Assembly (NCBI GenBank): GCA_016938875.1
Contig: JAFGTV010000053.1
Span: 186,001-250,000, forward strand
Source: Paracoccaceae bacterium
GTDB lineage: Bacteria; Pseudomonadota; Alphaproteobacteria; Rhodobacterales; Rhodobacteraceae
Length of the DNA stretch: 64,000 nucleotides
Direction: 5' to 3'
The translations under genes and the position numbers were made by a program. Shown here piece after piece: positions 52,245 through 52,909 of this stretch. Numbering within the stretch: the first letter of the stretch is position 1; every line of letters starts with the position of its first letter. The notes under the pieces are model-generated. The model did no database searches. It worked only from the letters and a program-made list of their open reading frames with translations, and had not been told where the DNA came from.

Positions 52245-52781
52245 TCAGTGGAAGTCGAGCACCAGATCGGACCCAAACTCTAAACCGGCAACCCTGCAGG
52301 CGATCTTAAGCCGCTGAACCACCTGGGGTTCGGAAAGGTTCAGGTCAACATACCAGATGCCATCGACCTTTTCTGCATGACTCTCGGCTAGGTCAGGACT
52401 CTTCTTGTATAGATCTCTTGGATTCTTGGCGACTAGTCTCCTCCCCGGCGTCTCTTCTAAGGAAAGCCTCTCGAAGAAACCTGAGTCGCGAGCTTGAAGC
52501 GCTCGCAGGCAGGTCAGGTAAGCCGACCTCAGCGAACTCTCCTGAATTGGCTTCCCGAGAAGCGTGAAGTCATAGATGCCGGACGATCTACTCGACCGCT
52601 TTTTTGCGTCGCGCCTCGGCACATCTAATTGTTTAATGGTCATTTCTTGGCTTCCCGTGTTTGGGGGCGGTTGTTTCAAGCAGCGCTTGATTATGTCGTT
52701 CTCCGTTTCTTTGAAGCTCTTCCTCCGCGCTTCGATGAGTGCATTGGTTTCCGTATCGATCTCGATACTCTTAGTTTCCAT
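52245..52781 (-). CDS. SeqA-like DNA-binding protein (ribbon-helix-helix plus SeqA-type C-terminal domain)
   Basis: This 178-residue protein is not of the local type. Residues 4-36 (S-I-E-I-D, then two helices ending D-I-I-K-R-C-L-K) look like the SeqA oligomerisation domain. Residues 37-70 form a basic, polar linker. Residues 72-178 have L-R-A-L-Q-A-R-D near 92-99, R114-R115, and W143-Y-V-D-L-N148 followed by a long helix, in the order of the SeqA domain that binds hemimethylated GATC. E. coli SeqA has 181 residues. The likeness is from memory and no search was run. The codons AGG, AGA, CTA, TTA and ATA and lower GC (34/60 at 52441-52500, 30/60 at 52681-52740) point to transfer. ATG 52781 has AAGGAG 7 nt upstream. 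A DNA-binding role is likely, sequestration is inference. Confidence 0.65.
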   Translation of the reverse strand: METKSIEIDTETNALIEARRKSFKETENDIIKRCLKQPPPNTGSQEMTIKQLDVPRRDAKKRSSRSSGIYDFTLLGKPIQESSLRSAYLTCLRALQARDSGFFERLSLEETPGRRLVAKNPRDLYKKSPDLAESHAEKVDGIWYVDLNLSEPQVVQRLKIACRVAGLEFGSDLVLDFH

Positions 52782-52788
52782 GTCCCGA

Positions 52789-52794
52789 CTCCTT
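52789..52794 (-). promoter_or_regulatory. Ribosome binding site of the SeqA-like gene
   Basis: AAGGAG on the minus strand, 7 nt before ATG 52781. It decides between this start and an upstream frame that runs to 52904 through the hairpin repeat. Confidence 0.7.
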
Positions 52795-52844
52795 GCTTCC
52801 TTATTCCTTATAAGGAAGCTGCTTTCTAAGGGCAAGCAGCAAGC

Positions 52845-52909
52845 GTAGGGTGGGTGAAACCCACCGCCCGGCCAAAGACCCGGCAAAGGTGGGTTGTCAC
52901 CCACCCTAC
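52845..52909. repeat. REP-like compound hairpin repeat
   Basis: GTAGGGTGGGTG (52845-52856) and CACCCACCCTAC (52898-52909) are perfect 12 bp outer arms. Each arm can also fold alone: GGTGGGT-GAA-ACCCACC (52849-52865) and a similar partner near 52888-52905. Palindromic GTAGGGTGGG-type elements are frequent dispersed repeats in many proteobacteria. No transposase is inside, so this is not a complete insertion sequence. Confidence 0.75.

Follow-up and report, generated by a model that had tools for sequence, protein, structure and literature searches.

Here we report that P0001, a gene on the minus strand at positions 52245 to 52781 of a 64,000-nucleotide stretch of Paracoccaceae bacterium DNA (the window; assembly GCA_016938875.1, contig JAFGTV010000053.1, positions 186,001 to 250,000), encodes a distant but real homologue of SeqA, with both domains homologous to those of SeqA. 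E. coli SeqA senses newly copied DNA; its familiar role is that of a replication regulator tied to Dam. Judging from sequence comparisons, it is about an even call that P0001 is a SeqA-superfamily reader of adenine-methylated DNA, carried as accessory cargo and serving to deal with incoming DNA rather than to time replication. A preliminary description of the window had proposed a 178-residue protein with the length and domain order of SeqA and, if real, a horizontally carried system that might read methylation state or bridge DNA in a new host: the homology stands, a Dam-linked transfer does not. The gene and its domains are as follows (MAG, metagenome-assembled genome).

52245..52781, minus strand: SeqA-superfamily gene (P0001), 178 amino acids plus stop; based on the translation, the relative L071 from a Defluviicoccus MAG, and profile and fold matches
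52668..52772, minus strand: SeqA_N-like N-terminal domain, residues 4-38; based on hhalign, NCBIfam SeqA and PDB 1xrx matches
52251..52574, minus strand: predicted SeqA-like C-terminal DNA-binding domain, residues 70-177

P0001 is homologous to SeqA in both domains

At the level of the single sequence, the evidence for a likeness to SeqA is weak. The NCBIfam SeqA model matched residues 4-61 of P0001 with E=0.054, the next, unrelated family (cystathionine beta-lyase) following at E=0.1, and the score of 13.5 bits does not reach the curated cut-off of NF008389 (185 bits). The sole match in a PDB sequence search was the SeqA N-domain 1xrx (E=0.82), and P0001 alone matched nothing in Pfam, SeqA_N included, nor in PHROGs and PADLOC. 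Residues 6-36 are identical to residues 4-34 of K-12 SeqA at 12 of 31 positions; the preliminary description had rightly seen this likeness but had counted 11 identities. In 100,000 shuffles of this N-terminal segment of P0001 the count never exceeded 11, and among the open reading frames (ORFs) of the fetched loci only copies of the P0001 gene contained a 31-mer with 12 identities. One unrelated-looking 31-mer does reach 11, so that the identity count alone is not decisive. When the N-domains of P0001 and L071 were compared with the SeqA N-domain, hhalign returned 97.0% with a score of 44.7, as against at most 13.9 in 100 column shuffles. P0001 has a SeqA_N-type N-terminal domain, and its predicted model contains two N-terminal helices.

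For the C-terminal domain, we compared a family profile of 31 rows (30 distinct proteins, with L001, a second copy of P0001, included) with 28 classical SeqA rows, which gave 96.7% and a score of 59.4 across 87 columns; the reversed control scored 11.7, and none of 100 column shuffles exceeded 17.3. Because L068, a protein found with the Pfam SeqA profile, contributed to the family profile as well as to the first structure alignment, neither was entirely blind to SeqA; L068 was not part of the nuclease alignment A6. A SeqA-C profile was also searched against 4,661 ORFs of the fetched loci, leaving out the classical SeqA loci L041-L067 and L069, and the 25 rows listed for it were all family members, some loci appearing under 2-3 ids. 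P0001 has a SeqA-fold C-terminal domain, the fold predicted for this part of the protein being that of SeqA. A second look at the PDB with the C-domain listed no other family, which does not prove other families absent, and a BFVD fold search gave no credible match (best E 0.33). As a SeqA profile match exists, the predicted C-terminal fold is that of SeqA and no better-matching family was found in the libraries searched, the proposed two-domain homology is supported by profile and fold matches alike. The weak single-sequence scores, including the E value of cystathionine beta-lyase so near that of SeqA, could suggest that a ribbon-helix-helix protein resembles SeqA by chance; we judged this explanation already contradicted, and its probability is negligible.

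P0001 lies outside the classical SeqA clade

L071, a two-domain protein, shares 43% identity with P0001 over residues 2-177, so that P0001 is a real gene. Unlike P0001, it has kept the equivalent of SeqA R116, and its neighbours differ, with a helix-turn-helix (HTH) gene directly upstream and xanthine-dehydrogenase-like genes on both sides (by eye). The sets from which relatives were collected overlap, and the window's own genome is among them. The single-protein search matched 4 of 101 genomes, one of them (G076) through the N-domain only, and matches were found in 13 of 394 genomes of the same family and 5 of 385 of the same class; among the latter, a match in G340 (E 0.002) was later dropped, as neither its ORF nor the family profile supported it. 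Named MAGs contributed 14 loci, plasmid records one match (E=0.6) that the family profile later supported, and the Pfam SeqA search, with 28 genomes matched, L068 (E=0.006), the same protein as L078. With PF17206, matches at E<=0.01 were obtained in 4 of 289 genomes of the class; L105, one of these four, looks unrelated. Neither the collection scans (single protein; alignment A1) nor the viral scan (alignment A5) confirmed a relative, and phage records yielded no match; together with the BFVD result, this leaves a phage origin without support. The family of SeqA-like C-domains was found in MAGs of several phyla, far beyond the alphaproteobacteria.

In a tree of 57 C-domains, which left out L026 (short) and L001, the 28 classical SeqA rows were split from 29 family rows with support of 100/100 and P0001 was sister to L071 (98/91), although the bootstrap is not fully settled and some rows are long-branched. 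P0001 is not a classical SeqA and falls outside the clade of the 28 classical rows. This contradicts the idea that a classical, Dam-linked SeqA was transferred from a gammaproteobacterium, perhaps together with a dam gene, for which the length, domain order and N-terminal motif similar to those of E. coli SeqA had spoken. The large shortfall from the NCBIfam cut-off and the changed residues R116, T117 and N152 argue against it as well, and the search for a dam gene that the preliminary description had called for gave no PF02086 or PF05869 match in the host draft genome (70 contigs, 95% complete), so that Dam was not detected. We rejected this origin as extremely improbable. Compared with the Dam-linked reference, the SeqA proteins of E. 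coli and V. cholerae (PF17206 + PF03925; PDB 1LRR, 3FMT, 1IU3, 3SK7), P0001 belongs to a separate clade, differs at the equivalents of R116, T117 and N152 and at the oligomer residues, and is a patchy accessory gene in a host draft without detected Dam.

The DNA recognition surface is retained in part

According to passages of PMC6225831, SeqA contacts GATC through R116, T117, R118, N150 and N152, and its residues T18, I21 and A25 are instrumental in oligomerisation. In the merged alignment, the five contact positions correspond to P112, G113, R114, N148 and S150 of P0001. The R-R loop and the tryptophan-containing strand mentioned in the preliminary description are both present, as R114-R115 and W143-Y-V-D-L-N148.

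52440..52442, minus strand: codon R114, aligned to SeqA R118 (GATC contact); merged alignment, contacts from passages of PMC6225831
52338..52340, minus strand: codon N148, aligned to SeqA N150 (GATC contact); same sources
52332..52334, minus strand: codon S150, aligned to SeqA N152 (contact residue lost); merged alignment

Among the 30 family rows (without L001), R116 is kept in 22, R118 and N150 in 27 each and N152 in one, with serine at the N152 position in 21; T117 is variable within classical SeqA too. The recognition surface of SeqA is thus retained in part. Since the fold and the equivalents of R118 and N150 are kept, P0001 very probably binds DNA.

P0001 is a patchily distributed gene at a variable site

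The P0001 gene has a guanine plus cytosine (GC) content of 52%, as compared with 65% for pheS, 67% for pheT and 67% for the whole window, and of 16 genomes in the genus only that of the window gave a match. Horizontal gain, which the preliminary description had suspected, is therefore likely. The gene sits between pheS and pheT (neighbours named by eye from the ORF list), and 13 of the other 15 genus genomes could be followed downstream of pheS, the contigs of G006 and G008 ending near pheS. With gene calls made by ORF heuristics, pheT lay in the same direction 415, 1006 and 1200 bases past pheS in three of these 13 genomes, with other sequence between; a pheT match was found about 3.4 kb off and in the opposite direction in four (in L117 by position alone); and the remaining six had no pheT match within the roughly 20 kb fetched after pheS. 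The occurrence in one of 16 genomes, the low GC content and the variable site would fit accessory cargo. Across the same 13 genomes (L107-L119), the stretch after pheS varies and holds low-GC cargo, for example a DUF4760 gene in L107. Between the P0001 gene and pheT, at window positions 52845-52909, there is an 18-nt inverted repeat (GTAGGGTGGGTGAAACCC / GGTTGTCACCCACCCTAC), possibly the edge of a mobile element; the 21-base pattern occurs at two genome sites with at most 2 mismatches (control, 0).

This distribution also bears on whether P0001 might read the mark of the host's own CcrM, hemimethylated GANTC, in a SeqA-like cell-cycle role. A single PF01555 methylase is encoded in the host genome; it carries a RAMA domain, and we take it to resemble CcrM. 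A passage of the review PMC6090056 allows that sequestration in alphaproteobacteria might fall to an unknown protein. One would expect a cell-cycle reader to be conserved, however, contrary to the single match among 16 genus genomes and the low GC content, and the domain also occurs far outside the alphaproteobacteria, which makes such a role improbable.

SeqA-like domains occur with nucleases and in small cassettes

In 9 of the 30 family rows, from several phyla, the SeqA-like C-domain is fused to an HsdR-type nuclease (HSDR_N + SeqA-C; loci L027/L074, L028, L072, L073, L076, L077 and L079-L081). These fusions have the same C-terminal domain as P0001 but carry a PD-(D/E)XK-type nuclease N-terminally, where P0001 has its SeqA_N-like domain. 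No DNA methylase was recognised by eye in the first 130 residues of each ORF neighbouring them, and they are possible candidates for methylation-dependent restriction enzymes. The N6-methyladenine-dependent type IV restriction enzymes described in passages of PMC11037411 follow the same proposed logic, a reader plus a nuclease, with a winged-helix reader instead of one of SeqA fold. Two of the fusions (L073/L076) are very similar to each other, yet one contig bears the label Maribacter and the other Deltaproteobacteria, so one of the two MAG labels may be wrong.

Eleven of the 30 rows stand in a three-gene cassette consisting of an XRE/HTH regulator, a DUF4258-like gene and the SeqA-like gene; in the window, no ORF of at least 60 amino acids had a profile match to the XRE or DUF4258-like partners at E<=0.001. 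In L031, L035, L037 and L038 this cassette lies within a gene-transfer-agent-like tail cluster; in L031 and L038 the tail genes are on the other strand. A plasmid gene of Methylibium petroleiphilum PM1, MPE_RS20160 (L005:7752-8303), encodes a SeqA-like C-domain (own Pfam SeqA match, E 0.19) and stands just before the phosphorothioate genes sspB, sspC and sspD. Furthermore, small proteins combining a SeqA_N-like and a RAMA domain occur in genomes of the same class (L004:1489-1923, L104:308-751 and L106:1489-1929). Their N-domain closely resembles the one shared by P0001 and L071 (hhalign 98.8%), whereas their C-terminal domain is RAMA, as on the CcrM-like methylase of the host (the L106 match being weak, E 0.031), making them candidate, putative readers of GANTC methylation.

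A possible reader of incoming DNA

We propose that the N-terminal strand-helix-helix domain would form dimers or higher oligomers and that the SeqA-fold C-domain would, via R114 and N148, grip duplex DNA with N6-methyladenine in a GATC-like site, the hemimethylated form probably being bound best. Where the host lacks Dam, DNA of this kind would arrive from outside, as phage, plasmid, conjugated or gene-transfer-agent-borne DNA from Dam+ donors, and its first replication in the new host would leave it hemimethylated. P0001 would then most likely mark, bridge or silence the incoming DNA, or control an accessory gene by the hemimethylation signal, its own gene having presumably been acquired as cargo at the variable pheS-pheT site. 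Arguments for a reading of modified DNA come from the nuclease fusions and from the ssp neighbour. Whether binding depends on adenine methylation we see as evenly balanced, and non-self DNA as the target is put forward more tentatively.

Several findings weigh against this proposal. Three of the five GATC contacts (R116, T117 and N152) are changed in P0001, and the oligomer residues T18, I21 and A25 are R20, F23 and E27. Given these contact changes and the serine at N152 in 21 of the 30 rows, P0001 may recognise a site other than GATC, and its binding may not require methylation. Among the 4,661 ORFs, the SeqA-N profile placed the SeqA_N-RAMA proteins first, then the unrelated-looking L105 (E 0.0016) above P0001 (E=0.039), with L003 and L071 later. 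As P0001 itself is absent among the 25 matches listed for the SeqA-C profile, its C-domain link runs via its relatives and the fold, for which the best Foldseek match had E 0.0042 and none reached E 0.001. No defence gene was recognised beside P0001 in the window's ORF list. Finally, of the 15 carrier genomes tested (17 are known), PF02086 matched three and PF05869 none; PF02086 also matches Caulobacter among the controls, so that such a match does not equal Dam.

The loss of the R116 and N152 equivalents and the host genome without a PF02086 or PF05869 match would also fit a SeqA-fold DNA binder that is blind to methylation and reads a sequence motif, for example the palindrome upstream of its own gene, and so serves as an autorepressor or bridges DNA locally. 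The region upstream of the gene contains two features.

52789..52794, minus strand: AAGGAG ribosome-binding site, 7 bases ahead of the P0001 ATG
52795..52819, no strand: perfect 10-bp inverted repeat abutting the ribosome-binding site upstream; also listed as terminator-like, plus strand

The repeat may be operator-like or form a stem-loop, and the two N-terminal helices of the model are like those of ribbon-helix-helix proteins. Against a methylation-blind binder, 27 of the 30 family rows, drawn from several phyla, retain R118, and equally many retain N150; the recurrence of the domain on nucleases with no methylase recognised by eye nearby suits a sensor of modified DNA better than an autorepressor; we consider it rather unlikely.

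Implications for the SeqA family

A passage of the review PMC6090056 states that alphaproteobacteria have no SeqA homologue, a statement that the P0001 gene and its relatives revise if the host is an alphaproteobacterium. For such a host speak its CcrM-like gene, its relatives and plasmid records similar to a stretch of the window: of 214 records, the eight listed highest are all alphaproteobacterial. We found no report of the SeqA-like family or of a SeqA-nuclease fusion in the open-access literature, as represented mostly by titles, abstracts and passages; the word SeqA is absent from the main text of PMC11037411, PMC10853773 and PMC12839542, and in PMC3973325 it appears in the reference list only. 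The occurrence of the SeqA DNA-reading fold in hosts without detected Dam, and on nucleases of several phyla, suggests that methylation readers of this kind form a broader family. We tentatively extend this to a SeqA C-domain that serves outside Dam hosts as a portable reader of adenine methylation, telling foreign from self in combination with an oligomerising N-domain, with HsdR-type nucleases or in small cassettes, some of them in gene-transfer-agent-like clusters. If so, the nuclease fusions would be a new class of restriction enzymes dependent on N6-methyladenine or its hemimethylated form, and gammaproteobacterial SeqA would represent a single domesticated branch within a broader family linked to defence. 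P0001 and its relatives are definite proteins for testing these ideas and may bear on the origin of SeqA, whose C-domain may serve to detect DNA methylation in general and not just to time replication.
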